From an uncultured Rhodobiaceae bacterium (GTDB taxonomy: Bacteria; Pseudomonadota; Alphaproteobacteria; RS24), in the NCBI GenBank assembly GCA_937907245.1, contig CALCUM010000003.1, positions 1 to 64,000 of the forward strand: a stretch of 64,000 bases of DNA, written 5' to 3'. Shown piece after piece: positions 7,278 through 27,206 of this stretch (its first letter is position 1; every line of letters begins with the position of its first letter). Under the pieces are notes generated by a model that worked only from the letters and a program-made list of their open reading frames with translations, was not told where the DNA came from and made no database searches. The position numbers and the translations under genes were made by a program.

Positions 7278-7366
7278 CGAAAACCTCCCTCTACCCGAGC
7301 TAAACTTGTTATAAATTAGACCGAACCTCGGCCCCGAAGCAACTCGCTTTAGGGGCGCAAATTGTT

Positions 7367-7541
7367 CTAGGAGCGAAGGCTTGCCGCCAAGGCTGCGCCG
7401 CTTAAAAACGCGTCCTCAACTTTAGACCCGCTGCACCAATCGCCGATGGCTGACAGCCCTTGGTCCCTATCCAGCAAATAGGGTTGCTCTGGCGTCGCCG
7501 CCAACACTTGCGCCGAGGCATAGCGCCAGCGATGCACTCGG
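7367..7541 (-). pseudogene. 3'-end fragment of the FAD-oxidoreductase gene
   Basis: On the minus strand this fragment encodes the last ~57 residues of the same protein as the intact gene at 25335-26363. It is identical apart from one base (C at 7498 versus T at 25472), then diverges four codons from the end: it stops as SLRS-TAG at 7367 where the intact copy ends SLRNLV. No start codon or 5' part is present. It is the left boundary of the glycan island and is best read as an insertion-site duplication rather than a gene. Confidence 0.9.
7374..7541 (+). repeat. 168-bp direct repeat, left copy (glycan-island boundary)
   Basis: 7374-7541 equals 25348-25515 in the same orientation with a single mismatch (7498 C, 25472 T) and no gaps. 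The interval between the copies is 17,806 bp and contains essentially only glycan genes. Near-identity over noncoding-equivalent sequence implies a recent duplication or ongoing homogenisation. Confidence 0.97.
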
Positions 7542-7549
7542 AAGTCGGC

Positions 7550-8083
7550 CTAGCGCGGCAATGGGTCCAGTCGAAAGACCCGCCTTACAATGCCAGTCAC
7601 TTGCAAGACCGTTTGCCCTCCTTCGCTGATTTTGAAACGCCCATTCGGTAAAATCTCTAAATTGCCGCTGGTTACCTGTTCTGTGACACGCTGTTGTCTC
7701 ACCTTCATCTCATCCGGATAGTCCTTAGCAATGAAATTATCGAGCTGCTGCTTGCTTACGATGCCCCCTTGCGCCTCGATTTTGTGCAGCAAGTACAGGC
7801 TTAAAGACCGGTCAATCGCGACAGGGGCCAACACTAGAACAAAAAGAAGCCCCACGAAGCCATTAGAGAGCAAAAGCAAGCTGGTCTCGTAATTTTTATT
7901 ACGCTTGAAATAGAACAATACAACCGCACCCATAATGCTAACCAAAGTGGCCAGAATAATCCCGTCGTAGAGCACCACACCGGTGCTAATGGTCTCCGGC
8001 CAGAGCATCATTAAAACAGTCCAAACCCAAAGTTCGCCGCCCCAGAAAAGGATGCTAAGCAGAAGTTTTCTTGAGAACTCCAA
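7550..8083 (-). CDS. Three-helix membrane protein with a soluble C-terminal domain
   Basis: A TTG at 8083 is preferred as the start because GGAGG sits exactly five bases upstream. The 177-residue product has three membrane helices in its first ~100 residues. A soluble domain of ~75 residues follows, with a helix-turn-helix-like pattern (GGIVSKQQLDNFI, QRVTEQVTSGNLEILPNGRFKIS). It resembles winged-helix tails of glycan-cluster membrane proteins by pattern only; no family was identified. It overlaps the end of the GT-C-like gene upstream by 29 bp, so the two are translationally coupled and may act together in lipid-linked sugar handling. Confidence 0.6.
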   Translation of the reverse strand: MEFSRKLLLSILFWGGELWVWTVLMMLWPETISTGVVLYDGIILATLVSIMGAVVLFYFKRNKNYETSLLLLSNGFVGLLFVLVLAPVAIDRSLSLYLLHKIEAQGGIVSKQQLDNFIAKDYPDEMKVRQQRVTEQVTSGNLEILPNGRFKISEGGQTVLQVTGIVRRVFRLDPLPR

Positions 8084-9683
8084 GAATGCCTCCAATCTGG
8101 TGCCAACTCATTATTACTATTGCCGATAGACCAAAAAGAAGCATCGGCAAGGACGGAAAGACGTAGCGCCCGAGCGGTGGATGAAGAGCTGAGATAGCTG
8201 CGCCATGATAGAAAGTGAAAACAAAACCTAGAATTAGAAAAGCTGCGTAAATGTTCACCGCTTTGCGCCAGAACAAATAACGTATAGTCAAAATCAGACC
8301 AAACCCCATGACCAAGGGATTAAGGTAAAAAAGCCCACGCCATAATGGCGAGACATAATGGTTTATCTTCGTAGCATTGCGCGCTTTGGTGCCTTGGTTC
8401 ATTTGGCTCAGCACATCATCAAGGTCGGGTTGGAACGATTTTTTGAACCGATCTTCCATTCTTTTATTATAGGCCATAAGAAAATTGTTGCGGTGTACAA
8501 GCGACGCCCTTGGCGCCGGCTTGTAGGCGTAATCGCGATTGCCTCCCACTAAGAAATATGCCGTATTGCGCAACCAGAAAGTCAAATACATGGATGGTTT
8601 TTCGAGCATCTGCTCAAAAAATACATCAAGCATTAACTTATCCGCTTCAACCATGCCCAGCTCGCGGATAGCCGCCCATTTAATCTGCCAATATGATTCA
8701 AGTGTCGGCGTCTCTAAAAAGCATGACGGCACTGTGCCGGGGTCTTTCTTGCACAAGGTATTCTCGAAAAAATCTTGCGAGACCTTCATTTTATTTCTTT
8801 GTCTCTCAATGTTCTTTTGTCCACGCTCGCTAGCCTCAAACTCGCTAACAATATCGATCATGCGCGCAGTTGCCGGACCATCAGATCTTTTAATCGCCCA
8901 ATCATCCTTTTCTCGGCTAACAACGATGGGGTTCATCATGCTGAAAATTCCCATGCCAGACGTCGACCCAGGAATAACCGCCTTGGTGAGAGCAGACTGA
9001 AAGACAGCTAACAGAGCCACGAGCACACATGCCACTCCGGTCCATTTAAAACGCTGCGACCATCTATCAAACGGGTACAAGAAGGTAATCGCTATCAACA
9101 ATGGCAGAGCCGTAGAGCGCGTCAAGCAAGCGATGACCCAAAAAACAAGGATCAAGCCAATAAGATATTTTTTGCGCATGACCATCAACATGGCCGAGGC
9201 AACAAACAAACCGAACAAGCTCAGTGCGTAAAGATGCTCATTCAAAATGGTTCGCGAAGAAATCTGTAAAACTAACGTAATCACAACCGGCAGCACTAAG
9301 ATCAAAGTGGCTGGGGCGCTGACGGACGCGCGTCTGAGAGCAAAATAGGTCACCAAAGGCGCCAAAAACCCGAATGATAATTGAAAAATGGCTATCAAGG
9401 GCAGGCTGAGAGAGCCAAAGCTAACAAAATAGAGAAATAGCGGGTATCCCAATGTCCGCAAGCGCGCGGTATTATCGTCATAAACAGGTGGATTTGCGCT
9501 CAAATAATTATTCGCAACCGCATAATAATCGGTGCTGGCGTAATGAATGGTGAAGGGCACTTTTGCAATCACGCTCAATGCATAGAGAGAGAATAGCACC
9601 AACACGCTCAAGCAAACCGTTTCAATTAAGCGCGGCTTTCGATGAGAGAGCTCTGACCAATAGTTAAGAAAAGCTAAGGGCAT
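8055..9683 (-). CDS. Polytopic GT-C-like membrane glycosyltransferase
   Basis: The 542-residue protein has about 10-11 membrane helices, with a large extracytoplasmic loop between residues ~240 and ~420. An acidic motif (STDYYAVANNYL) follows the first helix, the place where GT-C/ArnT-type enzymes put their catalytic Asp. A conserved-looking YPLFLYFVSFG segment comes next. GT-C enzymes use polyprenyl-phosphate sugars to modify glycans or lipid A on the periplasmic side. The specific sugar cannot be told. It lies at the left end of the island, upstream of and overlapping the small membrane-protein gene. Confidence 0.65.
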   Translation of the reverse strand: MPLAFLNYWSELSHRKPRLIETVCLSVLVLFSLYALSVIAKVPFTIHYASTDYYAVANNYLSANPPVYDDNTARLRTLGYPLFLYFVSFGSLSLPLIAIFQLSFGFLAPLVTYFALRRASVSAPATLILVLPVVITLVLQISSRTILNEHLYALSLFGLFVASAMLMVMRKKYLIGLILVFWVIACLTRSTALPLLIAITFLYPFDRWSQRFKWTGVACVLVALLAVFQSALTKAVIPGSTSGMGIFSMMNPIVVSREKDDWAIKRSDGPATARMIDIVSEFEASERGQKNIERQRNKMKVSQDFFENTLCKKDPGTVPSCFLETPTLESYWQIKWAAIRELGMVEADKLMLDVFFEQMLEKPSMYLTFWLRNTAYFLVGGNRDYAYKPAPRASLVHRNNFLMAYNKRMEDRFKKSFQPDLDDVLSQMNQGTKARNATKINHYVSPLWRGLFYLNPLVMGFGLILTIRYLFWRKAVNIYAAFLILGFVFTFYHGAAISALHPPLGRYVFPSLPMLLFGLSAIVIMSWHQIGGILGVLKKTSA

Positions 9684-9965
9684 GCCTTGCGCTCTTTATA
9701 ACTTTCTACTCTTCCAAGAATACTCAACACTGTTAACTTACACCTCTCTCCAAAGCGTGTTTGAAGCCAAATTTTCATATGAAACGAACAACTAAATTAA
9801 CACACATGCACCCGAAAATAAAAATTAAAACTTGGTGGGTTTTTGTCTAAACTAGCCAAACTATTGTTGCCTATGTTGCGTACGACGTCCAAGCCATAGC
9901 GTCACCCTTAAGGAGAAAAGCGGCTCCTGGGTGACCTATGATTTGGCATCGAAATCAGAGTTTTT

Positions 9966-11516
9966 ATGAACAGTCCACTTGTTAGTAGCTCGCAGAAATG
10001 TGTCAAACACAGTCATTTAATTATTCTTTTTCTGAGCTCCCTATTACTTTTATTATCTTTTGAACCGCTGGTTTACAGCGTCAAACGCTCAGCGGCGGAT
10101 GGCCACGCCTACGCCTTTATGGCAAAACAATTCATCGCCGACCCATCTGCCTTTTTCAGCTATGCGCCTCCTCCAGCCCATGCCTATGGGCCAGAGGTTT
10201 TAATCTGTATGGCATTCTACTTGTTGTTTCCCCATCTTGCCGCTTGGCAGGTTATTGGACTGGCCAATGTCACCATGACTTTACTTTTTGTCTGGCTGCT
10301 GGCTTTCATATTTCCAAAGGCTATAGCTGGCGCCCGCACAACAGAAGCAAAACCGCGCATAGCCAGCTGGCAACTTCGCACCGCGACCGCCAACCTCCTT
10401 CTCGCTTTTTTGAACTATTCCTCCCATTCAGCAGAGAGCTTTTTTGGCCTCGACGGAACGAATGCTCAAATTGGTTCCTACGCGACGACGCTTGTTCTAA
10501 TCAGCCTTTTTTTCGGAAAATATGGCGGCAAAACAAAACTCGCGATGATTATTTTTTCAGTCATCGGCACTATGTCCTCCAAATTAGTATTGGCCAGTGC
10601 CATTGCGCCACTTATGGCGTTGATTGTCCGCGACAGCTTTCAAAACCGAACTCTGTCGCCGCACAACAAGCGCCAGGCCGGACTTTTGGCGCTACTTTTC
10701 TTCGTTGCTCTAATTCCTAATTTAATACTCGGCGATATGGAAGCACTTCAACGCACGCGCCTGTCCATCTCCAATATTTACCCAACTCTAGAGCTTTGGC
10801 AGCAGTTTCTAATGGCGCAGTGGCGTACTATGGATCCTATGAAGTGCATCTATGTGGCAATGCTGATCGCTCTTTTGGCAATTCTTTGGCAAAACCGACG
10901 CCACCCGATTGTTTTCGTCACAATCGCCGCGCTCCTCGCATGCTTTGCGGCTAGCCTTGTAGCGGGCACCTTTCGTGGTTGGAACTTGAGATATTTAGGC
11001 GGCGGGCTTTTTCTCGCCGCAGGTTTTTGGATTGCTACGCAGTCCGCCCTCTCTTATCGCCTGACTTTGGCAATTGCGACCATAACCATTTTCTTAGGCC
11101 TTAATAATGACTATGACTTCGCCTATCCACAATCGCGCGAACAATCCCTCGCGGCCTGCCTCGCGCCTTTGGTCGCGAACGAGCGATTAACGCGCGGTCT
11201 GGCCGGACACTGGGATAGCGAGCCCATCAACAATATTCTAGACCAACGATTATTAATCAAGGCCCGCCTAAGCAACACTCGGCCCGAGCCCTATGCGTGG
11301 ATGGTAGACACGCGCTACAATAACTTTCATCAAAATATTGATTTTGCGTTGGAAAACAAAGCCAACAGGCATTATCACTTTTCGTCCGCAAATCTTAGAG
11401 CGCTGCCGGGCCATAAGGGCACACTTAGTTGTGCAGATAGCGACACGACAATACATCTGTATGATGCAAAGACATTCAGCAATTATTTAAGGGGCGAGAG
11501 CGCCACAAAGGAGTGA
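9966..11516 (+). CDS. Polytopic membrane protein, probable GT-C-type glycosyltransferase
   Basis: The 516-residue protein has about 10 membrane helices in its first 380 residues and a soluble C-terminal domain of ~120 residues. After helix 1 comes SAADGHAYAFMAKQF, with an Asp where GT-C enzymes carry their catalytic acid. The C-terminal domain has no motif I recognise. It is the only rightward gene of the left half of the island, and the 282-bp AT-rich spacer before it (9684-9965) also serves the divergent GT-C-like gene. It could alternatively be a polymerase-like or acyl-modifying membrane protein. Confidence 0.55.
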   Translation: MNSPLVSSSQKCVKHSHLIILFLSSLLLLLSFEPLVYSVKRSAADGHAYAFMAKQFIADPSAFFSYAPPPAHAYGPEVLICMAFYLLFPHLAAWQVIGLANVTMTLLFVWLLAFIFPKAIAGARTTEAKPRIASWQLRTATANLLLAFLNYSSHSAESFFGLDGTNAQIGSYATTLVLISLFFGKYGGKTKLAMIIFSVIGTMSSKLVLASAIAPLMALIVRDSFQNRTLSPHNKRQAGLLALLFFVALIPNLILGDMEALQRTRLSISNIYPTLELWQQFLMAQWRTMDPMKCIYVAMLIALLAILWQNRRHPIVFVTIAALLACFAASLVAGTFRGWNLRYLGGGLFLAAGFWIATQSALSYRLTLAIATITIFLGLNNDYDFAYPQSREQSLAACLAPLVANERLTRGLAGHWDSEPINNILDQRLLIKARLSNTRPEPYAWMVDTRYNNFHQNIDFALENKANRHYHFSSANLRALPGHKGTLSCADSDTTIHLYDAKTFSNYLRGESATKE

Positions 11517-11538
11517 GATCTGTCGGTCCAAAACGGGC

Positions 11539-12348
11539 TTAAAGCAGCCCTTCCAAATCCTCAAACTTAACTTCCAGAAGCGCACGATCTCGGCTCAATG
11601 GCGCAAAATATTTTGCGAACATGGGCTTAGGCACCAAGACAAGACGCCCACTTAATCTGACAAACTCATACTTCCCAATTTTATCCATGAATGCCTTGAA
11701 CGATGGGCTAGCTTCCAACTCTGAAAAAAAGTCTGGTGCAAATTCTTTTAGACGCTTCAAATTTGGCTTCGATGTCTTATGCTTGTCAAAATAGTAACTA
11801 AAGGTTTCCGCAATCAACAAAAATGGCAGAATAAGCTGAGCTTTGCCGAAGTCCCGTCGCGCCAAATATTTAGTTTCTGCCATAAACTCCACATCATCTA
11901 TCACGATAATCCCATTATGGGAGATGTGCTCGAGCATAAAAGTGAACTCTAAAAGGTTGAGCACCGCATCTCCAGAGCCATCAACAAAAACCAAATCCAT
12001 AGTCTTTCCGTCATTGCCCATAACAGATGACAAAACATCCACCCCGTTGCCTTCCACCCAAGAAATATTCGGCAGAGCTTGAGGAAACATTTCAGCTACA
12101 ATGGCTCGCGATTTTTCAATGTTCTCAGCATCAATATCAATGGATACCACTTCGCCATTACCATTAAACGTCTCGACGATAGAGGCGCCGACCAATAAGG
12201 TCGACAGACCTTCATTGGTCGAAAAGGCCGTACCGATTTCTAGATAGTTGAGCCTGCCGGTTTCTTTTCTCAAGGCTTTCATGCAATGAAGCAGAACCTT
12301 AGCGCGCACTTTGCTATCTGCCATTTCTAGTATGCTGCTATAGTTCAT
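11539..12348 (-). CDS. SAM-dependent methyltransferase (class I, Methyltransf_24 type)
   Basis: A Rossmann-type methyltransferase of 269 residues. SAM motif I is YLEIGTAFSTNEG near residue 35, an acidic motif II is VVSIDIDAENIEKSR, and LVFVDGSGDA plus GIIVIDDVEF follow. The ATG at 12348 is preferred over a TTG five codons upstream. Methyltransferases in ABC-transporter polysaccharide clusters often decorate or cap the glycan, and the exporter's ATPase here has a C-terminal domain of the type that reads such caps; that link is inference. It is the last gene of the long leftward island operon. Confidence 0.75.
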   Translation of the reverse strand: MNYSSILEMADSKVRAKVLLHCMKALRKETGRLNYLEIGTAFSTNEGLSTLLVGASIVETFNGNGEVVSIDIDAENIEKSRAIVAEMFPQALPNISWVEGNGVDVLSSVMGNDGKTMDLVFVDGSGDAVLNLLEFTFMLEHISHNGIIVIDDVEFMAETKYLARRDFGKAQLILPFLLIAETFSYYFDKHKTSKPNLKRLKEFAPDFFSELEASPSFKAFMDKIGKYEFVRLSGRLVLVPKPMFAKYFAPLSRDRALLEVKFEDLEGLL

Positions 12349-12373
12349 GGGATTTTTCTGCAATTAAGCGACC

Positions 12374-13147
12374 TTAGTTAGAGAAGACTGATTCGTATTC
12401 AACCCGCGGAAAGATTTCAAGCCCACCGCCAGCCGTGGCATTCAAAATTTTGCGCCCATTTGCCTCAAACACTTGTTTGGCTTTTTGATAATTTAGAGCC
12501 ACTAAATCGATTTTAGGGTCATGCCATTTTTTGCCCTTACCGAAATAGCTAGGGTCAAAATGATTGGGGTCATCCTCCGTTGAAGTCAAGGTATTGCCCT
12601 CCACAATGACACTTGATGGCTTGGTATAATTGAAGTCCATACCAATTAGGTAGACCTCGCTAAAGCCCAAATAATAAGCCAACTGAAAGTTGATGTGGGT
12701 TACGGACTGACCAGCGAACAGAACCTCAGATGCATCCCTCGAAAACCGCGGAATACCCCCGAAAGGATGACTATCCCAATAAAAACCATAATCACAATCG
12801 AAGAATATTGTATTCTCAGAGCCGCGAATATCGCGTTTATAACGAGCTGGAAAAAAACAATAATCCGGCTTGTCCGCGAAAACATTAATGCGGTCGATAT
12901 TATCCTCAACAACGTGATTGTCTTCAATAACATAGAAACTCGGCACAAAGGCCTCGCTATCCTGCTTTAGAAATATTGAATTGACCCCAAACGTATGTTC
13001 ATCTTTCAAAAGTTTCAGAGAAACATCATTTAAGCTAGGGCCATTTCCGATAATAACGCAACGTTGACCTGCGAAGCGGTTTTTTAGGATCGTTAACTTA
13101 GTTCTATCTGACTCATCTGTTTGGTATCTAATCTGTGTACTAACCAC
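12374..13147 (-). CDS. DUF115/MptE-like protein with GNGPSL motif, candidate glycosyltransferase
   Basis: The 257-residue protein begins with CVIIGNGPSLNDV, a Rossmann-like nucleotide-binding opening shared by DUF115/MptE-like proteins and, in similar form, by GT42 sialyltransferases. Further elements are GFSEVYLIGMDFNY and a HFDPSYFGKGKKWHD segment. A second island protein (21478-22206) shares the same layout. The frame opens with GTG at 13147, overlapping the upstream GT2 gene by 8 bp. A role as CMP-nonulosonate-type or related transferase is a hypothesis supported by the CMP-sugar synthetase in the same operon. Confidence 0.65.
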   Translation of the reverse strand: MVSTQIRYQTDESDRTKLTILKNRFAGQRCVIIGNGPSLNDVSLKLLKDEHTFGVNSIFLKQDSEAFVPSFYVIEDNHVVEDNIDRINVFADKPDYCFFPARYKRDIRGSENTIFFDCDYGFYWDSHPFGGIPRFSRDASEVLFAGQSVTHINFQLAYYLGFSEVYLIGMDFNYTKPSSVIVEGNTLTSTEDDPNHFDPSYFGKGKKWHDPKIDLVALNYQKAKQVFEANGRKILNATAGGGLEIFPRVEYESVFSN

Positions 13148-14309
13148 GCCCCATTACCCTTCTTAAAACTCGAAACACAACATACGCCAAGGAAACATTG
13201 TAAGGAGGCCTAGCTTGCACAATTTTGATGGCACGAAGCAGGCTAATCGCAACATAGGTAAAACTCATATTTTCAATCGAGCCATCCTTAGGAGGCTCTA
13301 CTTCCGCCTCCCTCATATTCTTCCTCTCGGCGTCCGGATCGGATAACATAAGCATCGCTAAATCACTTGGTATCATCACAACAAGCTCGTCAATTTTTTG
13401 ATTGATGCGCGCATTACGAATTTTGCGCGCGCGCTTTTCATGGGCCAACGACCAACTGAGATGGGGGTTCTTTTCAACGAACTCCGCAATCATAAGCTTA
13501 AAGGCCATAAACTCGCGGACCGAAGTCATTTCATCTAACTTTTTAAAAACAGTCGCCCATATGCCCAGAAACCTTAACATCACCTCCGTCTCTTGATCTT
13601 CACCAAGATAACGATCAACCCTTTCCAGAATACTGAAGAAACTTAGCAAATGCTTCTCTGACATCTGACGAGAGAGCGACCCATCGCGAAAGTTCCACAT
13701 ATAGCCGCAATAATCCAAGCGCTTATGTTTAAAACCCTGCGCCAGTACTCGATAGGTGTGGTCCATATCTTCATGGATTAGGCCGGGGAAAAAAAGGTTT
13801 TCGGCGTCATCAAAAATTGAGCGGCGCCACAAACGTGCCCATGATGAGTTCGCGGCATAGCCTATGAGCAGCATACGGAAATATTCAGCATCTGAGAAAG
13901 CGACTATCTTATTGCTAGCGATGCTCTCCCCATCTGGCATAAGTCGTAGATTGCGTGATGATACAATGTCGGCTTGCGTGTCGGACGCCGCAGATGCGAG
14001 AGTTTCGACAAAATCTGGCTTCAACCAATCGTCATCATCAACAAAAAACAGATACTCCCCTGTTGCTTTTTTGATGCCAGCATTGCGCGCCTCGGAGAGG
14101 CCCTTGCGGCTTTGGCTTATAATTGTAATGCGAGGGTCATATTTCGCCAGCTCAGATAAAATCAGCGGCGTTTCATCTTCAGACCCATCATCCACACAAA
14201 TGATCTCTAGGTTCGAGAACGTCTGATCTTGCAAAAACCCAATGCTATTCGCCAGGCTATCTGCACAATTGCAGCATGTCACAATTGCCGTTATTTTCTC
14301 GATAATCAT
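13140..14309 (-). CDS. Family 2 glycosyltransferase
   Basis: A 389-residue GT-A enzyme. The N-terminal domain shows ITAIVTCCNCADSL, CVDDGSEDET and a metal-binding acidic run FVDDDDWLKP at about residues 92-101. An HEDMDHTYR segment, typical of the catalytic base region, follows near residue 180. The C-terminal third is helical and unassigned. GT2 enzymes add sugars from nucleotide donors on the cytoplasmic face. The start overlaps the stop of the SDR gene by 4 bp, so it is tightly coupled to the CMP-sugar module. Confidence 0.85.
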   Translation of the reverse strand: MIIEKITAIVTCCNCADSLANSIGFLQDQTFSNLEIICVDDGSEDETPLILSELAKYDPRITIISQSRKGLSEARNAGIKKATGEYLFFVDDDDWLKPDFVETLASAASDTQADIVSSRNLRLMPDGESIASNKIVAFSDAEYFRMLLIGYAANSSWARLWRRSIFDDAENLFFPGLIHEDMDHTYRVLAQGFKHKRLDYCGYMWNFRDGSLSRQMSEKHLLSFFSILERVDRYLGEDQETEVMLRFLGIWATVFKKLDEMTSVREFMAFKLMIAEFVEKNPHLSWSLAHEKRARKIRNARINQKIDELVVMIPSDLAMLMLSDPDAERKNMREAEVEPPKDGSIENMSFTYVAISLLRAIKIVQARPPYNVSLAYVVFRVLRRVMGRG

Positions 14310-15064
14310 TTGCTCACATCCGTCAACACTGAAGACAGCCCACCATCCACTGAAAGGGTCAAACCTGTAAAGTGCTTATCGTTCGAGTTAAGTAGTAATT
14401 GCACAAATGTTGCAATTTCCGCAGGTGTCGAAATTTTGCCAGACGGATGAATGTTGCCAAGCTGTTTAGCAGCTTCTGGCCATTTCTCTCCAAAACCATC
14501 GGTTAGCATTTGTGTTTCAACAGCTGCAGGTTCAATGGCGTTGACGCGCACCCTAGCCCCCCACTCCAGCGCCATATAACGTGTTAAGGCCGAAAGAGCA
14601 GCTTTCGACGTTGCATAGGCAACAAAGTGTCTCTTAGACAAGCGGGCATGAATTGAAGAAATATTCACCACCGAGCCCTGATTGGCTGCTAGCGGTTTGT
14701 AGCAAATACGAGACAATTCAAACGCTGCCGTCAGGTTTACATCAAGCGTTTTTCTAAAATCTGACAAGGGCATATCGACAACTGGCCCGACATATTGAAA
14801 GGCTGCATTATTCACTAGACCACAAAGGCGCGCAAAACTATCAAGCCCTTCCAACGCCTCGCGAACCGAGCCGAGAGTTGGCTCATGGTTAACAAAGTCA
14901 GACAGGTTGCAGGCAACAAAGTCAAAATGTGCGTCTGGCTTCACGCTCGGCACAACAAGGTCTAGGCCGATAACATGAAAGCCATCCTCAATCAGCCGCT
15001 CCGTTAACTTTGCGCCAATGCCACCGCTCGATCCGGTAACCAGAATGGAAGCTCGCTTAGTCAT
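14306..15064 (-). CDS. Short-chain dehydrogenase/reductase of the CMP-sugar module
   Basis: A classical 252-residue SDR: VTGSSGGIGAKL cofactor motif at residues 9-20, NNAA at about 84-87, catalytic Ser in VVNISSIHA, YATSKAA as the YxxxK motif, and a C-terminal TLSVDGG. It should oxidise or reduce a hydroxyl/keto group of a sugar or sugar acid. The start overlaps the D-2-hydroxyacid dehydrogenase gene by 8 bp. Pairing of an SDR with a cytidylyltransferase recalls PtmA/PtmB of Campylobacter legionaminate-type biosynthesis, but no NeuB-type synthase is present here. Confidence 0.85.
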   Translation of the reverse strand: MTKRASILVTGSSGGIGAKLTERLIEDGFHVIGLDLVVPSVKPDAHFDFVACNLSDFVNHEPTLGSVREALEGLDSFARLCGLVNNAAFQYVGPVVDMPLSDFRKTLDVNLTAAFELSRICYKPLAANQGSVVNISSIHARLSKRHFVAYATSKAALSALTRYMALEWGARVRVNAIEPAAVETQMLTDGFGEKWPEAAKQLGNIHPSGKISTPAEIATFVQLLLNSNDKHFTGLTLSVDGGLSSVLTDVSK

Positions 15065-15986
15065 TTAAAAAGCCTTCCAACAGACTTATCGCCTTGGCGT
15101 TGGCTCGCATCACACCTTCCAGAGTGTTCGACCCATTATGCGAACCGACCAATACACCGGGGAAAGACAAAAGACGGTTATCAATGGTCACCGGCTCGAC
15201 CTCGAACACATCCAATGCCGCGCCTGAAACCTGCCCCCCTCGGAGAGCCTCATAAAGGGCATTTTCATCAATCAGGGGACCCCTCGCTACATTGATAACT
15301 TTGGCGCCTCGTTTTAGTTGAGAGAGAATGTCCGCATTAATCATATGGTGGTTGGCGTCGTTCAAATTACAAGTCAAGATGAGGTAATCACAAGCGTCAA
15401 TGTCTCGCGGCCAGGTAAGCAACTCGACACCCTGCTCTACCTGGCTAGGAGGTACGCCCGGGTCCCAGCTCACCACCCGTGACCCAAGAGCTTTCATGCG
15501 ATGACAGGTTTGGCGCCCGATATCACCATAGCCAACAACCCCAATCGTTGTCTCGCTCAGCGATTGCCCTTGCGGCTTATACCAATTTCCTTGACGAACC
15601 TCGCGGTCAATTGTCATTAAATCACGGGCCAGGCAAACCACATAGCCCAGCGCCACATCAGCGACCTCATTGCCAAACATTTGCGGTGTATTGGCAATCG
15701 GGATGGACAGCTCTTGGCAAGCCTTGAAGTCAACATTATCCGTTCCAATGCCCCATTTAACGGCCGCCTTGAGCCGACCCGATACGCCAGCCTCAAAAAC
15801 GCGTCGTGTCGCAGGGTCATCGCCGATAATCCAGCCATCACATTGCGGCACGGCTTCACACAAGGCTTGCTCGCTCATCACCTGGGTGAATTCGGGAATA
15901 ACCGCCTCCCAACCCCGCGTCTCAAAAAGCGGCAAAAACTTCTCCTTTGCGCCGATCATCGGGGGACAAGTTACAAGAACACGCAT
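15057..15986 (-). CDS. D-isomer-specific 2-hydroxyacid dehydrogenase
   Basis: The 309-residue protein has the NAD-binding loop GVVGYGDIGRQ in the centre, an INVARGPLIDE segment with the catalytic Arg region, and a VGSHNGSNT segment with the catalytic His. It resembles phosphoglycerate-dehydrogenase-like enzymes that interconvert 2-oxo and 2-hydroxy acids. The ATG at 15986 overlaps the stop of the cytidylyltransferase (TGATG); an in-frame TTG lies one codon upstream. Its position in the glycan operon implies a sugar-acid substrate rather than serine biosynthesis (inference). Confidence 0.85.
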   Translation of the reverse strand: MRVLVTCPPMIGAKEKFLPLFETRGWEAVIPEFTQVMSEQALCEAVPQCDGWIIGDDPATRRVFEAGVSGRLKAAVKWGIGTDNVDFKACQELSIPIANTPQMFGNEVADVALGYVVCLARDLMTIDREVRQGNWYKPQGQSLSETTIGVVGYGDIGRQTCHRMKALGSRVVSWDPGVPPSQVEQGVELLTWPRDIDACDYLILTCNLNDANHHMINADILSQLKRGAKVINVARGPLIDENALYEALRGGQVSGAALDVFEVEPVTIDNRLLSFPGVLVGSHNGSNTLEGVMRANAKAISLLEGFLND

Positions 15987-16669: not shown

Positions 16670-16676
16670 TAATCTG

Positions 16677-18373: not shown

Positions 18374-19343
18374 GATGTTTTTGATGCCATACCCATGCAT
18401 CGCCAATAATGGTTTCCAGGTCAGAAAATAATGGGCCCCACCCCAGCTCGCTATGAGCCTTACCAGCATCCGCAACAAGGATGGCTGGGTCACCTTCACG
18501 CCGCGGCGCTATCTCAACATCTAACTTGCGCCCAGTCACCCGCTCGCAAGCCTCCATAACTTGGCGCACAGAGTAACCTTGGCCAGTGCCGAGGTTAAAC
18601 TTATGCGCCCCCGGATTATCATCAAGCCAATGCATGGCTCTCCAATGAGCGTCAGCCAAATCGCGCACATGGATATAGTCGCGAACGCAGGTACCGTCAT
18701 CTGTCGGGTAATCATCACCGAAAATTTTCACCTTATTGTCGCCAAACATCAATTTGCGAAGGATGATGGCAATCAGGTGGGTTTCCGGCTCATGTGCTTC
18801 GCCAAGAGATCCGTCAGGTGCAGCGCCGGCAGCGTTAAAATATCGGAGGCAAACCGAAGAAATCCCGTGTGCGGCAAAAGCATCGTGCAGCATCTGCTCA
18901 GCGAATAGCTTGCTTCTGCCATAAACATTAATCGGCTGCGTCGGAGTCGCTTCGTTAATTGGCAATTGCTCTGGTATTCCATAGACCGCCGCAGTTGACG
19001 AAAAGACAATTTTCTTGACGCCCGATTGCTTGCAAGCCTCGATTAGATTGAGTGTGCCCACAACATTATTTCGATAATAATCAAGTGGCCATTCAGCGCT
19101 TTCAGCAACTAATGATTTGGCCGCAAAATGAAAAACCCCGTTCACGCGATAGCGCTCGAAGGCGCCCCGCAAGGCGGCTGCATCGAGCAAATCAATTGTC
19201 TCTAAGTTCTTTCCCGCGGTAGCGAAATGATTGCCTGTAGAAAAATTATCCACCACAACCAGCTCATCAGAAACTTTGGGATCGCTATCGTAGGCCAAGA
19301 AAGACCCAACGTATCCAGCGCCTCCGAACACAAAATAATCCAT
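18363..19343 (-). CDS. galE: UDP-glucose 4-epimerase
   Basis: A 326-residue extended SDR: FGGAGYVGS cofactor loop at residues 6-14, VVDNFSTG, FHFAAKSLV, catalytic Ser in VFSSTAAVYG and YGRSK as the YxxxK motif, then RYFNAAGA and the YPTDDGTCVRDYIHVRDLADAH block diagnostic of GalE. It interconverts UDP-Glc and UDP-Gal (or the N-acetyl forms) to supply hexose donors to the island's glycosyltransferases. GAGGGGG precedes the start. It lies between the Wzt gene and the lactonase in the leftward operon. Confidence 0.93.
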   Translation of the reverse strand: MDYFVFGGAGYVGSFLAYDSDPKVSDELVVVDNFSTGNHFATAGKNLETIDLLDAAALRGAFERYRVNGVFHFAAKSLVAESAEWPLDYYRNNVVGTLNLIEACKQSGVKKIVFSSTAAVYGIPEQLPINEATPTQPINVYGRSKLFAEQMLHDAFAAHGISSVCLRYFNAAGAAPDGSLGEAHEPETHLIAIILRKLMFGDNKVKIFGDDYPTDDGTCVRDYIHVRDLADAHWRAMHWLDDNPGAHKFNLGTGQGYSVRQVMEACERVTGRKLDVEIAPRREGDPAILVADAGKAHSELGWGPLFSDLETIIGDAWVWHQKHHGG

Positions 19344-19389
19344 CAGACCCCCTCAACAACTGTCTTGATGTAAACTTGGCAGACCACGC

Positions 19390-20652
19390 CTAACTCGTGT
19401 GCCATTTTTTAGGCACGCTAAACTCACCAAAACGATACGATTTATCTTTTTCAACCGCGACGGGCCCCAAGGGCTGACGCATCAGGTATTTAGGACCGTC
19501 ATGAATAACCAAAACTGGCGTAAAAGTGCCAGACACCAAGGGCAACGCATCAACCGCACAAGTTAAAATAACTGGCCGCCAGCCATCCACTTCAGGGCCT
19601 TGAGTGATTATGAAACCATCGGCATTGGTTTCAAGGTTGAACATCTGAATACCGCCTTTATAGAATACGAGCGCCAGATTAAGGTCTTGCTGAACGCCTT
19701 TGACCCAAAACGAGGCTTCGAATAATAGTTTTTCACCATGCACCAAAACCGACGCCTTGTTCATATCATTGCCATTCAGGCTCACCTTATCTAACTTTAG
19801 AAGGTCTTTTTGGGCTTCAATTTCCTCACCATGGCTAGAGCCAAGGCTTGCGCTTCTCGTCTTTACGTTTCCGATACTTGCTTCTTTTTTGGCAAGCATG
19901 GCTTTCTGATAGGTATCAATAACATCGGCAGGCGCGCCTTGCGCTTGAACTTGACCGCTATCCAGAAAAACCGCTTTGTCACAAAAGCGCTCAATATCAC
20001 TCATCGAATGACTAACCAAAATCATCGCTGTTGAGCCTTTCAAAGATTGAAAATGCTCATAGCATTTATTGCGAAAGGCCATGTCGCCCACAGACAGCAC
20101 TTCATCGATCAAGAAAACATCCGCTCGACTATGAATGTTGATTGAAAAAGCGAGGCGCATTTTCATCCCGGAAGAATACGTTTTGAACGGCGCATCGATA
20201 GCATCGCCGAGTTCAGCAAAATCAATAATATCCGCCTCACTTGCAGCTATCTCTTTATGCGTCAAACCGTTCAGGGTGCCGCGGGTATATATATTCTCGC
20301 GCCCCGACAAAGTGCCTATCAATCCGTTGGAGAGATTAATCAAGGATACCAACCTGCCATCATGCTCGGCTGAGCCATTGTCCGGGGTAGAATACGAAGA
20401 CAATATATTTAAAAGCGTTGTTTTTCCTGCCCCATTATGACCGATAATACCTAGAGCTTCCCCGCGGCGGACAGAAAAACTGACATCCTTAAGGGCCCAA
20501 AACTCGCCCTCTTCCAAAGCCAAGTTTTTGCCCTTCAGACGACGATGAAATAAGGCTGCAAAAACACGGCGAGTGATATTTTTTTGGAGTCCTAACGGGT
20601 TTCGCGAGAACTTTTTTGCCAACGCACGAACACGAATAAGCTCTTCGCTCAT
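19390..20652 (-). CDS. wzt: Polysaccharide ABC exporter ATPase with C-terminal glycan-binding region (Wzt-like)
   Basis: A 420-residue ABC ATPase. Walker A is GHNGAGKTT at 71-79, the signature is SSGMKMRLAFS, Walker B is VFLIDEVLSVGD and an ILVSHSM switch follows. After residue ~270 comes an extra ~150-residue beta-rich domain, the layout of Wzt proteins whose C-terminal domain recognises a finished, usually end-capped, O-polysaccharide before export. The gene overlaps the permease gene by 4 bp (ATGA). Together they form the exporter for the glycan assembled by this island. Confidence 0.9.
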   Translation of the reverse strand: MSEELIRVRALAKKFSRNPLGLQKNITRRVFAALFHRRLKGKNLALEEGEFWALKDVSFSVRRGEALGIIGHNGAGKTTLLNILSSYSTPDNGSAEHDGRLVSLINLSNGLIGTLSGRENIYTRGTLNGLTHKEIAASEADIIDFAELGDAIDAPFKTYSSGMKMRLAFSINIHSRADVFLIDEVLSVGDMAFRNKCYEHFQSLKGSTAMILVSHSMSDIERFCDKAVFLDSGQVQAQGAPADVIDTYQKAMLAKKEASIGNVKTRSASLGSSHGEEIEAQKDLLKLDKVSLNGNDMNKASVLVHGEKLLFEASFWVKGVQQDLNLALVFYKGGIQMFNLETNADGFIITQGPEVDGWRPVILTCAVDALPLVSGTFTPVLVIHDGPKYLMRQPLGPVAVEKDKSYRFGEFSVPKKWHTS

Positions 20653-21437
20653 AGCCGCCCCCGCAGTTCATCTTTCAAGATGAATAAAGTAGAACAGGCC
20701 CAAACCAACATTACTAAACCCAAGACAATTTGGACGATAAAGCCGCCTTGCGCCTGATAATCACCCAAAACAACCAGCGAGCGTATGCTGTCGACAATAA
20801 GATGCAGAGGGTTAACGGCCATTATCTCGCCTGCTCTACCTAAGCGCGAAACCGGGAAGATAACGCCCGAAACAAAGATACCGTATTGCAAAAAAATCAT
20901 CACCATACGGCTCACATCGCCTAGCATAAGGTTTAGAATTCCGAGGAGAACCCCAACACCGAAGCAACACAGACAAGCTAATCCGAGAACGACAAAAGCC
21001 AGCGGATTGAAATTGATCACATCCGGGCTAAAGAATGTCAAAATAAGGATAACGAAAACAACACGCAAAAAAGTGTCAAAGGCCAAATCTGCTAAGCCCA
21101 CAAAAAGATGCGAGAGAACAGAAAGACGGTTTCCCTCAAGCCCCTTAAGCGATTTTTCAAGGTTGTTCATCGGCACCGAGATGAGCCCCGCCATAAGCAA
21201 CCAAACGCTGACGCCAACGCTAACAAACGTTAGACGGCTCATTCCGTCAACATTAGGGAAAACATTAACAAAAGAAAGAATAATATAAAATCCGAGCGGT
21301 ACGATCGGCATGATCAGGTTCCACAGAACAGAACTGCGCGAATCCCTTGTTTTCGATAAAAAGTTCCCCTTGAACAATCGCCATACGGATGCGCGTTCAT
21401 GCCAAAAATCACGAAGGAGGTAGAAAGTAGAAAACAT
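20649..21437 (-). CDS. wzm: Polysaccharide ABC exporter permease (Wzm-like, ABC-2 type)
   Basis: A 262-residue protein with about six membrane helices and a cytosolic N-terminus containing FKGNFLSKTRDSRSSVLWNLIMP, as in ABC-2 polysaccharide exporters. ISVPMNNLEKSLKGLEGNRLSVLSHLF is the usual cytoplasmic coupling region. It carries the undecaprenyl-linked polysaccharide across the inner membrane together with the ATPase encoded immediately downstream. It follows the GNGPSL-protein gene at 21478 by 40 bp in the same leftward operon. Confidence 0.9.
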   Translation of the reverse strand: MFSTFYLLRDFWHERASVWRLFKGNFLSKTRDSRSSVLWNLIMPIVPLGFYIILSFVNVFPNVDGMSRLTFVSVGVSVWLLMAGLISVPMNNLEKSLKGLEGNRLSVLSHLFVGLADLAFDTFLRVVFVILILTFFSPDVINFNPLAFVVLGLACLCCFGVGVLLGILNLMLGDVSRMVMIFLQYGIFVSGVIFPVSRLGRAGEIMAVNPLHLIVDSIRSLVVLGDYQAQGGFIVQIVLGLVMLVWACSTLFILKDELRGRL

Positions 21438-21477
21438 TATATTTTTCTATAGGTTTTTAGCCGTAAAACCAACAGAA

Positions 21478-22206
21478 TTACTGAAGAAAAGCATCCAACG
21501 AGCACAATGGAAGCGTTTCCAGTCTTGTCTGCGTTGAGGCATTGAGTAGCTGGCGTCCATTTTGTTGGAAAGCTTGCAAAGCCAAGCCATAAGAGGCCTC
21601 ACTCATTGCCAGGTCTGGCGCATGCCATGCCTGATTAGCAAAATAGCGCGCATCAAAGTGATTAATATCCCTTTCTCCACCCCTAAGCTCTTTATGCGGG
21701 GTTCCCGTATCGCCAAAGTAATGGTCGCAGCCAACCAACGCGACCTCGCTAAAGCCCATATAATATGCAAGCTGGAGAGCCACGAAAGTAACCGTCCCGC
21801 CTTGGCTCACATAAATTTCAGGCTGAGCACTAAAACCCTGCTCATAGCTACATAAGTGAATATGATTGGGCGCAAAATCAACATGACGACGCGCCGCAAA
21901 ACCGTCTAAAAATACAGGCAAATCAGTGCTTTGGTAGAAACCTGCGTTTTGCTTTATAACGAGATCATTAACCGCAACAACACACGATGGCCGAAAGCTT
22001 GTTCTCTCAAAAAGTAAGTCAATTTTATTCAACCCGAAACAAAACACGCCATCCAAACTCTCAAAATCAACGCCATTGAGGCTCGGTCCATTGCACAAAA
22101 TAACAGCTTTTTGGCCGTCGAATGCAGATTTATAGTGTTTCATCCGCGTCATTGACCGCCAAGCTGCTAGGGAAGACAGATATTTTAAGCGTCGCGCCAG
22201 GAACAT
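21478..22206 (-). CDS. Second DUF115/MptE-like GNGPSL-motif protein
   Basis: The 242-residue protein has the same order of elements as the protein at 12374-13147: AVILCNGPSLNGV, a long central region, a TVTFVALQLAYYMGFSEVALVGCDHYFGD block and a HFDARYFANQAWHAPD segment. Residues differ enough that the two are paralogues rather than recent duplicates. It is the first gene of the leftward operon, so it is transcribed with the exporter. It is probably a nucleotide- or nucleotide-sugar-binding glycan enzyme; the exact reaction is unknown. Confidence 0.65.
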   Translation of the reverse strand: MFLARRLKYLSSLAAWRSMTRMKHYKSAFDGQKAVILCNGPSLNGVDFESLDGVFCFGLNKIDLLFERTSFRPSCVVAVNDLVIKQNAGFYQSTDLPVFLDGFAARRHVDFAPNHIHLCSYEQGFSAQPEIYVSQGGTVTFVALQLAYYMGFSEVALVGCDHYFGDTGTPHKELRGGERDINHFDARYFANQAWHAPDLAMSEASYGLALQAFQQNGRQLLNASTQTRLETLPLCSLDAFLQ

Positions 22207-22213
22207 GATATAC

Positions 22214-22231
22214 TTATCTTACATTATCTTA
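22214..22231. promoter_or_regulatory. Period-10 TTATCTTA repeat between divergent glycan operons
   Basis: The 41-bp gap between the leftward operon (start 22206) and the rightward operon (start 22248) contains TTATCTTA at 22214-22221 and again at 22224-22231, exactly one helical turn apart. Read leftward it gives TAAGATAAT, a plausible -10-like element. It may be a shared operator or overlapping promoter; no transcription factor can be named. Confidence 0.35.
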
Positions 22232-22247
22232 AAGCTGGCAAGTTTCT

Positions 22248-23006
22248 ATGATCACCATTGCGCTAACAACCATCTGTTTCAATGCCGAGAAAACCATTGA
22301 AAGATGTGTCGACAGCGTTTTGCATCAACACGATGCCCCCGATCGTTACATCATCGTTGACGGACGAAGCACGGATGCGACGCTCGAGATTGTGCAAAAG
22401 CCAGCCTATAAAAATACTATCGACCACCTGATTAGCGAGTCAGATGAAGGCATTTCGGACGCCTTTAACAAGGCATGGCGCGCCAGTGAGTGCGATTATG
22501 TTGCCACTTTGAACGCCGATGACTGGGTTGCGCCAGACTACATCGCGAAGGTACGTATCGCGATAGAAACCGCTCAACCAGATATTATCATTTCTCATCT
22601 AAGCTTTGAAAATGCGCACAGCAAGCGCCTTATCAAGCCGCGTGTTTTTAATAGTTTGCCACCTAAAAACTGGTTTCATCCGGCTATTAATCACCCAGGT
22701 ATGGTTATTCGCAGATCGCTTCTGGAAAAGGCTGGCGGATACCAGCTTGACTATGCGGTCGCCATGGATGTCGACCTCTACCTCCGTCTATTGGCTTTTA
22801 GCCCGCGCGTTCACGTTATTGAGGCGCCGCTTGTGCATCAATGGGACGGCGGGGTATCGCAAAGCCACTGGCATCTCGCTTTGAGCGAAATGCGCCGCAT
22901 TGAAATAGCCCACGGACGAACCCGCCTTGGCGCATGGTTGAGTTATCTATTTCGAACCAGCAAAAAAATACTGAAACTTAGCCTTCCTTTCGAGGTTCCA
23001 AGATGA
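22248..23006 (+). CDS. Family 2 glycosyltransferase (WcaA/colanic-type)
   Basis: A 252-residue GT-A enzyme: ITIALTTICFNAEKTIERCVDSV opening, YIIVDGRSTDATLEIV, ESDEGISDAFNKA and TLNADDWVAP with the metal-binding NADD. These are features of the WcaA-like subgroup. A catalytic-region MDVDLYLRL follows. It is the first gene of the rightward three-gene operon and overlaps the next gene by 4 bp (ATGA at 23003). It adds one sugar of the repeat unit; donor and acceptor are not readable. Confidence 0.85.
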   Translation: MITIALTTICFNAEKTIERCVDSVLHQHDAPDRYIIVDGRSTDATLEIVQKPAYKNTIDHLISESDEGISDAFNKAWRASECDYVATLNADDWVAPDYIAKVRIAIETAQPDIIISHLSFENAHSKRLIKPRVFNSLPPKNWFHPAINHPGMVIRRSLLEKAGGYQLDYAVAMDVDLYLRLLAFSPRVHVIEAPLVHQWDGGVSQSHWHLALSEMRRIEIAHGRTRLGAWLSYLFRTSKKILKLSLPFEVPR

Positions 23007-24079
23007 GGGTGCTCGCAGATGGCCGATTTTTGAGTAAGCCTCAGACGGGTATTGGACGCGTATCAAGTGAATTGGCACGGCGCGCACCTGACCATGACTG
23101 TGAGATTGCTTTCCTAACGACGGGCCCGCCCAATAAGGCCTATGCGGCCGATAATTTCTCAATGCATCCAAACCTAGCGGTGTGCAACCACCTGCCCAGG
23201 CTCGCCAGCTTAACCAGACAAGTGGTTCGCGCCGCCGATGTTTTTTGGGGGACATCGCATCGCCTGCCCTTCGCGCTACCAAGCGATTTACCATGTGTTT
23301 TGTCCGTGCATGATATGGTTTGGAAAAAATACCCTGAGACAATGCGCTGGCGAACATGGCTTGGCGAACGGCTTTTGTTTTCCCACGCCGTCCACCGCGC
23401 CAATGCTATTGTCTGCTTATCGCGATCTACGGCGGCCGATGTTGTCCATTATTTTCCTGAGACAGAAGATAAAATTAGCGTTGTCTATCCGGGTGCATCG
23501 CCAGCGCAAGCCGAGCGAAGCCCTATCGAAAAACCTTTTGCCCTTTTCGTGGGCACATTGGAGCCGCGTAAAAACCTTGCCGTTCTCATTGCTGCCTTTG
23601 CGGATTTACCAACGCGGGTAAAAGACCATCTCGACTTGGTAATTGCTGGCGGCGACGGTTGGGGGGGCATCGATATTAAAAATATAATCGTGTCTCATGG
23701 CCTGTCATCGCATATTCGCGTCGTTAAATCCCCAAACGATGCAACCCTCCACCAGCTTTATGCCGATTGCAGTTTTCTCGTTATGCCCTCCCTTTATGAG
23801 GGGTTTGGCCTACCTATTGCCGAAGTGATGCGCTACGCGAAACCTGTGATTACCTCCAACACAGCTTCCATGCCAGAGGTTGCCGGCGAGGCAGGATTGC
23901 TGATAAATCCGAACGAAAAATCCAGCATAACCGAGGCAATTATACAACTTATCGAAAACAAAGCCCTGTATAAAGACCTCAAAGGCAAGGCTAGAAGCCA
24001 GGCAAATCAATTTTGCTGGGACAGCTATGCCCAAGATATGATAGGTGTGATGTCAACAGTGATAAAGACGAAAAAGTAA
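23003..24079 (+). CDS. Family 4 (group 1) glycosyltransferase
   Basis: A 358-residue GT-B protein. The N-terminal half has TGIGRVSSELARR and SVHDMVWKKYPE, the mannosyltransferase-like acceptor domain. The C-terminal half has FALFVGTLEPRKNLAVLI and the retaining-GT4 signature EGFGLPIAEVMRYAKPVI with the E-x7-E pair. It resembles WbpY/MtfB-type mannosyltransferases in layout. It overlaps the GT2 gene upstream (ATGA) and is followed after only 2 bp by the next GT4 gene, so all three form one unit. Confidence 0.85.
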   Translation: MRVLADGRFLSKPQTGIGRVSSELARRAPDHDCEIAFLTTGPPNKAYAADNFSMHPNLAVCNHLPRLASLTRQVVRAADVFWGTSHRLPFALPSDLPCVLSVHDMVWKKYPETMRWRTWLGERLLFSHAVHRANAIVCLSRSTAADVVHYFPETEDKISVVYPGASPAQAERSPIEKPFALFVGTLEPRKNLAVLIAAFADLPTRVKDHLDLVIAGGDGWGGIDIKNIIVSHGLSSHIRVVKSPNDATLHQLYADCSFLVMPSLYEGFGLPIAEVMRYAKPVITSNTASMPEVAGEAGLLINPNEKSSITEAIIQLIENKALYKDLKGKARSQANQFCWDSYAQDMIGVMSTVIKTKK

Positions 24080-24081
24080 TC

Positions 24082-25236
24082 ATGAAAGTTCTGCACGTCT
24101 ACAAGACATATTATCCCGACAGCTTTGGAGGGATAGAACAAAGCATTCGTCACTTGGCGAATGGATGTGGCGTGCATGGTATTCATTCAGAAGTATTTAC
24201 GCTAAGCCCATCACCCCAAGCAGAGAGCATAGAGTACGAAGGTCATCGCATTCATCAAGCCAAGGCTAATATTCAATTGGCCTCAACTCCCCTTTCTTTA
24301 TCAGCTTTTGCAAAGTTTGCAGATTTAGCCAAGCAATTCGATTTGATTCATTATCATTACCCTTATCCATTTGCCGATTTACTAAAACTTGCCACCTTCG
24401 TCAAAAAGCCCAGCATCGTAACTTATCATTCTGATATCATTCGCCAACGTCGCCTTAAGTATATTTACGCCCCTCTGCAGGCCTTGTTTTTACGATCCAT
24501 TGACCGCATCGTCTGCACCTCTGAGGTTTACCTAAAAACCAGCCCAGTATTAAAAAAGTATAAATACAAAACCGAAGCCGTTTCCCTTGGCCTCGACAAA
24601 AGATCGTTTCCGGTACCAACGCAAAAAAACTTGGACAAATGGCTAAACCTTATCAACCAACCGTTCTTCTTATTTTTAGGCGTCTTGCGCAATTACAAAG
24701 GCGTTAGAACACTTGTTGATGCGGCTTCCATGACGAATGCCAACATCGTTATCGCTGGCGGGGGGCCAGAGCTAGACACGCTTAAAAAGCACGCTAAATC
24801 GTTAAAGCTAGAGAACGTAATCTTTACTGGCCAAATTAGTGAGGACGACAAAGCAGCTCTTTTGCAGTTAAGCACTGGGCTGGTGTTACCGTCTCATCTG
24901 CGTTCCGAAGCTTTTGGCCTGGTGCAGTTAGAGGCTGCTATGAAGGCTAAACCGCTTGTCTGCACAGAGCTAGGCACTGGCACATCTTATGTTAACGAGC
25001 ATGAGAACACGGGGCTTGTTGTGCCACCGAAAAACCCCGAGGCTTTGGGCAATGCGATGAATTTTCTGACCTACCATCCAGCCATGGCCCAGCGGATGGG
25101 GAAAGAAGCCGAGAAGCGGTTTAAAGAGCTGTTTACGGCCGAACAAATGTGCAAACACTATGCGCGAATCTATAAGGACGTCGTGGGCAAGAAAAGCTTA
25201 TCGGAGCCGGTTTCGGTATTGGCCAGCGCCGAGTAG
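24082..25236 (+). CDS. Family 4 (group 1) glycosyltransferase
   Basis: The ATG at 24082 is chosen because the conserved opening MKVLHVYKTYYPDSFGGIEQ begins there; an upstream in-frame ATG at 24013 lies inside the preceding gene. The 384-residue GT-B protein continues with IHYHYPYPFADLLKL, SIVTYHSDIIRQ, FLFLGVLRNYKG and SEAFGLVQLEAAMKAKPLV (the E-x7-E region), then an NTGLVVPPKNPEAL nucleotide-binding end. It closes the rightward operon; its stop is 112 bp from the right copy of the 168-bp repeat. Confidence 0.87.
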   Translation: MKVLHVYKTYYPDSFGGIEQSIRHLANGCGVHGIHSEVFTLSPSPQAESIEYEGHRIHQAKANIQLASTPLSLSAFAKFADLAKQFDLIHYHYPYPFADLLKLATFVKKPSIVTYHSDIIRQRRLKYIYAPLQALFLRSIDRIVCTSEVYLKTSPVLKKYKYKTEAVSLGLDKRSFPVPTQKNLDKWLNLINQPFFLFLGVLRNYKGVRTLVDAASMTNANIVIAGGGPELDTLKKHAKSLKLENVIFTGQISEDDKAALLQLSTGLVLPSHLRSEAFGLVQLEAAMKAKPLVCTELGTGTSYVNEHENTGLVVPPKNPEALGNAMNFLTYHPAMAQRMGKEAEKRFKELFTAEQMCKHYARIYKDVVGKKSLSEPVSVLASAE

Positions 25237-25334
25237 CTAAGCACGCAAAATTTGCGCGTCCGGCGGCCATTCAGCAGAGATAATTCCTCTCTGACGGCCA
25301 CAGATATTTCTTAAGAATTAGGCAGAATTAAAGC

Positions 25335-26363
25335 TTAGACCAAGTTACGAAGGCTTGCCGCCAAGGCTGCGCCGCTTAAAAACGCGTCCTCAACTTTAGA
25401 CCCGCTGCACCAATCGCCGATGGCTGACAGCCCTTGGTCCCTATCCAGCAAATAGGGTTGCTCTGGCGTCGTCGCCAACACTTGCGCCGAGGCATAGCGC
25501 CAGCGATGCACTCGGTCGTAACCTGAAGCGGCGGAACTAGAGGTGAAAGTTTTGCTTCCGGTTAACGCTTCGAAACGCGCTTTCATGGTCGCCCCCACAG
25601 CCTCCGCGTCATCTTCGATATGAGCTTGCGACCAATCATGCTTCGTTTGCAGCACCAAAGCCAACTCGCCACCCCGCCCTGGCTTGCCTGAATTAACCGC
25701 CGCAAAGCCCAACACGTCATCCTCAAAATGCGCACAATCCCAATCTAGCGCCGGCGCCTCATCCGGCGCATAGCCCAACATTAATGTATGGCAGCCGAGC
25801 ATTTTCGTTTTTGCTAAAGCCTGCGTAAAGCTTGTCTCGACGGGCAAAAGCGCCTGCCCTTGCGCCGGCGGAATGGCCAAGACAACATGTGCGAACGGGC
25901 CAAAGCTCTGCTCGCCAGCGCGCAAAACCCACGCCCCTGCTTTGCCGTCCACTGCATCGACACCGCAATCGAGATACACATTCCATTGCGGCCTGCCTGC
26001 CACTAAGGCCTTGCCGATCGCACTCATGCCAGGGGCAAAGACCTTCTTGGCCGCCGCATCGAGCCGTGCCGTTTTGGTTCCATCGGCGGAAATATTTACA
26101 TGGCGCGGAAGCCAAGTGCGAACATGCCCTGCTGCCTCAAACGGTTTCAGCCATTGTTGAAACGCGGCGCTATCGGCTCGGAAATATTGCGCCCCATGGT
26201 CGAAGGCATAGGGGGGCGCGCGCCGCGTCGACAGCCGACCCGATAGACCTCGTGATTTATCAAATAACGTCAGATCGAAATCTTGCGCCAGCCCATCCGC
26301 ACAAGCCAACCCCGCCATGCCAGTGCCGATAATGGCGATACGCGGTTTTTCTACTTTACTCAT
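25335..26363 (-). CDS. FAD-dependent oxidoreductase, renalase/amine-oxidase-like
   Basis: A 342-residue flavoprotein: FAD-binding IAIIGTGMAGLACADGL near the N-terminus, LFDKSRGLSGRLSTRR, YAFDHGAQYF and a C-terminal AIGDWCSGSKVEDAFLSG that closes the FAD site. This is the COG3380 type, related to renalase; the substrate is unknown. The ATG at 26363 follows AAGGAG. Its last 56 codons lie inside the right copy of the 168-bp repeat, and the same 3' end is duplicated at 7367-7541, so this gene is the docking site of the glycan island. It shares a mirrored promoter box with the divergent gene at 26562. Confidence 0.85.
   Translation of the reverse strand: MSKVEKPRIAIIGTGMAGLACADGLAQDFDLTLFDKSRGLSGRLSTRRAPPYAFDHGAQYFRADSAAFQQWLKPFEAAGHVRTWLPRHVNISADGTKTARLDAAAKKVFAPGMSAIGKALVAGRPQWNVYLDCGVDAVDGKAGAWVLRAGEQSFGPFAHVVLAIPPAQGQALLPVETSFTQALAKTKMLGCHTLMLGYAPDEAPALDWDCAHFEDDVLGFAAVNSGKPGRGGELALVLQTKHDWSQAHIEDDAEAVGATMKARFEALTGSKTFTSSSAASGYDRVHRWRYASAQVLATTPEQPYLLDRDQGLSAIGDWCSGSKVEDAFLSGAALAASLRNLV
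25348..25515 (+). repeat. 168-bp direct repeat, right copy (glycan-island boundary)
   Basis: This is the same sequence and orientation as 7374-7541 with one mismatch. Here it is the functional 3' end of the FAD-oxidoreductase gene. Recombination between the copies would remove 17,974 bp and leave an intact FAD-oxidoreductase ending SLRS instead of SLRNLV. Confidence 0.97.
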
Positions 26364-27197: not shown

Positions 27198-27206
27198 GAG
27201 CCCATC

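Follow-up and report, generated by a model that had tools for sequence, protein, structure and literature searches.

In ocean bacteria, resistance to phages and diversity among strains are driven by surface-glycan islands, but how these islands enter a genome is usually hard to make out. Aquatic prokaryotes carry flexible genomic islands for surface glycans of both the replacement and the additive type (Lopez-Perez et al. 2014, PMC4033161), and the O-chain clusters of Pelagibacterales are likewise flexible surface-glycan islands (PMC11898729). For the T6SS effector arrays and Rhs loci of Vibrio cholerae, displacement of gene 3′ ends has been proposed to proceed via homology-facilitated illegitimate recombination (PMC5361080).

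Here we describe a 64,000-nucleotide stretch of DNA from an uncultured Rhodobiaceae bacterium, hereafter the window, taken from the beginning of a 1.04-Mb contig in a 1.80-Mb genome of three contigs. It holds a surface-glycan island that was acquired recently and has well-defined limits. The kind of event is already known and common; the junctions are unusually clear. With an occupied site, two unoccupied sites in sister species and a recent duplicated scar, each base of the junctions can be followed, and they favor recombination anchored within an ordinary gene over the action of an integrase.

A Glycan Island Bounded by a 168-bp Direct Repeat

A 168-nt sequence at positions 7374-7541 recurs as a direct repeat at 25348-25515 on the same strand, with 167 of the 168 positions matching and a sharp loss of identity at all four edges. 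The whole genome holds two copies of this sequence and no more, and it is the sole repeat of at least 50 bp within the window. A chance origin is excluded. The two copies reproduce a gene 3′ end at the island's borders, an arrangement typical of integrase islands. A dispersed repeat is ruled out by the copy number, and a transposon by the lack of inverted repeats at the borders and of any transposase. Searches of viral contig and genome contig collections returned no instance of the exact repeat pattern.

Between the copies lie 17,806 bp (7542-25347) of exporter, glycosyltransferase and sugar-activation genes. A preliminary description of this DNA had reported the same-orientation repeat with its single mismatch, the glycan genes between the copies and the lack of a recombinase among them. 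The comparison of the copies upholds the first of these observations, and family searches of the island ORFs uphold the other two.

The Unoccupied Site in Two Sister Species

The host gene of the insertion encodes an intact, amine-oxidase-like FAD/NAD(P)-binding oxidoreductase (25335-26366, minus strand; likely ATG at 26363; PF13450, E 2.3e-13; PF01593, E 4e-8). Its orthologues in three related genomes, G001, G004 and G005, are 74-77% identical. The native neighbor of this gene, which encodes an OYE-family NADH:flavin oxidoreductase (6198-7277, minus strand; PF00724), now lies on the far side of the island.

In the sister species G001 and G004, the oxidoreductase gene, at 74% identity in local alignment, is followed after ~95 bp by an OYE gene that is 92% identical to the window copy, with order and strand as in the window and with no island at the gene pair. 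Absence from the same gene pair in close relatives is a hallmark of flexible islands. The predicted excision product, obtained by joining the window flanks at the repeat (2.2 kb), aligns end to end with G001 and G004 at 79%. The window thus presents the occupied state of a gene pair left unoccupied in two sister species, which shows that the glycan island was inserted into a pair intact in both. The single-copy adjacency that the preliminary description proposed to seek in relatives is thus present in two of them. The comparison set comprised one genome per species, and the relatives retrieved with the oxidoreductase are marine Rhodobiaceae/PS1-clade genomes, which places the organism itself among the marine PS1-clade/Rhodobiaceae alphaproteobacteria.

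The Native 3′ End Lies with the Left Copy

The left repeat copy (7374-7541, minus strand) is headless, as had been noted earlier, and it is the native 3′ end of the oxidoreductase gene, whereas the right copy (25348-25515, minus strand) is the 3′ part of the intact gene and runs into a new tail. Several features show this. The stop codon just past the edge of the left copy occupies the ancestral position (..LRS-stop, compared with ..LRA-stop in relatives). The native stop region and the spacer to the OYE gene (7278-7373, minus strand) are 63-65% conserved with G001 and G004; from the left copy to the OYE start, the spacer reaches local scores of 211-216, versus 16 for the right tail. At the only mismatch between the copies, the relatives share the base of the left copy.

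The preliminary description, which took the right copy for the real 3′ end, had therefore inverted the relationship, since both the ancestral stop position and the OYE spacer accompany the left copy. The stop that it placed four codons beyond the edge of the left copy belongs to the right one (..SLR-N-L-V-stop), with NLV-stop replacing the ancestral ending; the left copy adds one further residue (..SLR-S-stop). Because the intact gene merely gained a new three-residue tail, its product probably remained functional.

Probable Resemblance of the Right Tail to a Second Downstream Context

The right tail and ~150 bp beyond it are similar to the sequence that follows the oxidoreductase gene in G005, including the start of the 161-aa ORF that comes next there. 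The corresponding segment (25161-25347, minus strand) comprises the new tail and a probable decayed piece of this G005 sequence (tail TTGGnnTAAGCTT), and overlaps the 3′ end of the island's last glycosyltransferase gene. Under three scorings, 0/15000, 0/15000 and 43/15000 same-genome controls reach the observed score; with strict mismatch penalties the resemblance is not significant. An nhmmer search gave E 0.32 over the 208 kb searched, for which we calculate ~3e-4 for a single position, and a protein-level search for the remnant found nothing significant. The right tail and the ~150 bp beyond it are thus probably homologous to the G005 sequence, in which case two alternative downstream contexts of one gene would flank the island. 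At the junctions, homology probably extends past the gene end on the right side; at the left inner junction there is none beyond the repeat edge. The genome's own 161-aa gene was considered as a recent source of the tail and rejected; it is intact at C3:414927-415400 and is not close to the tail.

The upstream side of the gene is in agreement with this. In the window and in G005, the interval from the SulP transporter gene to the oxidoreductase holds a GST gene and a second gene (26562-27197), whereas in G001 and G004 SulP is directly adjacent. Within 26562-28364, which spans GST and its neighbor, the GST is 82% identical to that of G005; G001 and G004 have only a 72% homologue, located elsewhere. 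The sharing of GST and its neighbor with G005 is another exchange at the locus.

Variable Arrangements at the Locus

The surroundings of the oxidoreductase gene differ among other relatives. In G005 it is followed by the 161-aa ORF, a monooxygenase gene and then Cas9-Cas1-Cas2, in G011 immediately by an alcohol dehydrogenase gene, and in G007 the OYE gene precedes it. G001 carries an unrelated polysaccharide cluster (L052:3533-12169) beyond the OYE gene, and not between the pair. These arrangements support the view that the locus is a hotspot rather than a fixed docking site. An apparent second headless fragment, in G011, proved to be a contig edge.

The G005 Cas genes form a type II CRISPR-Cas locus (L049:1106-5684; Cas9, Cas1 and a Cas2-like ORF) a short distance downstream of the oxidoreductase. 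The G001 cluster encodes WecA-like, NusG-like, outer-membrane and SLBB export proteins; the SLBB export protein has no match among the other genus members searched. Elsewhere in the genome under study, an integrase island lies at tRNA-Met (C2:183901-219999), with genes of the metal-efflux type and, ~36 kb away, a 28-bp duplicate of the tRNA end, and two of the genome's four tyrosine-recombinase genes are inside or beside it. Contig C1 of the same genome is 3085 bp long with three ORFs and is possibly a small plasmid or a phage genome fragment.

Cargo, Origin and Age of the Island

Every island gene is a glycan or membrane gene, and none serves mobility. The last gene before the left repeat copy encodes a 181-aa membrane protein (7550-8095, minus strand) with homologues in 7 of ~385 alphaproteobacteria. 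It covers nearly the full length of these distant homologues, whose C-termini extend ~10-35 residues further, so a slight truncation of the gene at the left border is possible. Two large multi-span membrane proteins belong to no family; one (8055-9683, minus strand) is absent from the 40 relatives searched, and the other (9966-11516) is on the plus strand.

Family searches identify a minus-strand run that encodes a methyltransferase (Methyltransf_24; 11539-12363), an MptE-like protein (12374-13147), a GT2 glycosyltransferase (13140-14309), a short-chain dehydrogenase (SDR; 14306-15064), a 2-hydroxyacid dehydrogenase (15057-15989), a CMP-sugar synthetase (cytidylyltransferase; 15986-16669; nearest NCBIfam model PseF, below cut-off), another GT2 glycosyltransferase (16677-17558), an SMP-30/gluconolactonase-like protein (17555-18499), the UDP-glucose 4-epimerase GalE (18363-19343; above the curated cut-off), a Wzt-like polysaccharide exporter ATPase with no close homologue in 11 congeners (19390-20652), a Wzm-like ABC-2 permease (20649-21437) and a second MptE-like protein (21478-22206). 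On the plus strand follow genes for a third GT2 glycosyltransferase (22248-23006) and two GT4 glycosyltransferases (23003-24079 and 24013-25236), the latter being the one whose 3′ end overlaps the probable G005-like remnant. In total, the island encodes a Wzt/Wzm-type exporter, five glycosyltransferases, two MptE-like proteins and, among its ORFs, three membrane proteins without a family. Such a cluster of glycosyltransferase, sugar-activation and export genes is characteristic of flexible surface-glycan islands. The MptE-like genes share a 33-nt stretch at 88% and are apparently old paralogues.

The island has no DNA counterpart in the 11 congeners beyond short matches at chance level, and the GC3 of its genes is lower than that of most neighbors to the right. 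By these sequence comparisons, the island is evidently foreign to the genus and horizontally acquired. Its contents include no integrase, transposase, plasmid gene or tRNA, and a query of plasmid collections gave no match. Between the repeat copies the difference is 0.6%, against 21-26% between this stretch and its counterparts in G001, G004 and G005. Given how much more alike the copies are to one another than either is to the sister species, the duplication, or the last gene conversion that homogenized the copies, is recent and by this measure much younger than the species.

Possible Routes of Entry

The route that we favor, as the probable one, is recombination with the 3′ end of the oxidoreductase gene as anchor, and not site-specific integration. 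In the ancestor, the oxidoreductase gene would have been followed directly by the OYE gene, a state kept by the two sister species. A surface-polysaccharide island of the ABC-exporter (Wzm/Wzt) type, acquired horizontally, would then have entered this gene pair on DNA that carried a 3′ piece of the oxidoreductase gene and a different downstream context ahead of the glycan genes. One end would have been resolved by ordinary homologous recombination with the resident gene; at the far end of the island, a non-homologous join would have formed 168 bp upstream of the point at which homology ceased. The native 3′ end, the spacer and the OYE gene would thereby have been displaced beyond the island behind a headless copy, and the intact gene would have been given its new three-residue tail. 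That one end was homologous and the other illegitimate is our inference, as are the kind of donor and a role in altering the cell surface where phages or grazing exert pressure. The layout of the locus fits this process, which is the one proposed for displaced gene ends in Vibrio. Given 99.4% identity between the copies, this route requires that the donor was conspecific, that the crossover took place near the 3′ edge or that gene conversion followed, and homology-facilitated illegitimate insertion is reportedly rare (PMC5361080).

A circular DNA bearing the island and the oxidoreductase 3′ end could instead have integrated by a single RecA-mediated crossover of the Campbell type, with reverse excision possible. 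Such an event needs no integrase and yields exactly the observed order of repeat, island and repeat, with the native 3′ end moved beyond the island and the intact gene ending in a new tail. However, the DNA between the repeats contains none of the replication, partition or transfer genes of a plasmid backbone and matches no plasmid, which makes a plasmid cointegrate unlikely. The two copies would also jointly hold all differences between donor and recipient, so that this route, too, requires a conspecific donor or later homogenization; we regard it as rather unlikely. Unequal recombination between resident haplotypes, one with the oxidoreductase gene, G005-type sequence and pre-existing downstream glycan genes and the other with the oxidoreductase and OYE genes, would account for upstream genes and a right tail that resemble G005 next to a left tail and OYE gene that resemble G001 and G004. 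Nonetheless, no genome was found in which the island alone directly follows the oxidoreductase gene, and the proposal is built partly on weak homology, so it seems improbable to us.

Comparably doubtful is site-specific integration in which a tyrosine recombinase, encoded elsewhere in the genome or on a lost element, would have acted at an attachment site within the oxidoreductase 3′ end. Integrase islands usually insert at the 3′ end of a gene and displace its native end, and the genome has four tyrosine-recombinase genes elsewhere. Yet no integrase lies inside the island or beside either end, 168 bp would make a long att core, no tRNA is involved, and the arrangements in relatives vary without a constant site; the genome's clear integrase island is different, with tRNA-Met as target, a 28-bp repeat and integrases of its own. 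The possibility that the repeat is an assembly artefact is hardly credible. Although 168 bp could mislead a short-read assembler and the organism has a single assembly, this assembly consists of three contigs with both copies inside the 1.04-Mb contig, one base distinguishes the copies, and their flanks both make biological sense, one of them matching the sister species.

The preliminary description's reading of the locus as an integrating or exchangeable cassette is partly supported. Insertion at an empty site, a foreign island and the lack of an internal recombinase agree with that reading; its choice of native 3′ end was inverted. We give little credence to the idea that the oxidoreductase 3′ end is a reusable docking site, where glycan cassettes would be added and removed by RecA via a self-provided 168-bp copy with the gene kept intact. 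Exchange of the island between strains would be plausible.

Comparison with Known Systems

Like islands of the tRNA type, which are inserted by integrases, the locus carries a gene 3′ end as a direct repeat on its two borders, and the native end is displaced. Unlike them, it has no integrase, a protein gene as target and a 168-bp repeat with no defined core. With flexible glycan islands it shares a foreign glycan block amid conserved genes, no recombinase and an appeal to homologous recombination; here, however, the junctions are recognizable by a duplicated gene 3′ end, and only one strain is compared. As proposed for the T6SS and Rhs loci of Vibrio, a homologous anchor would lie within a gene, with new DNA joined downstream and the old 3′ end left headless behind the insert. 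In contrast to those loci, the cargo here is an 18-kb glycan island, the gene is complete with a near-native end, and the duplicate is 99.4% identical.
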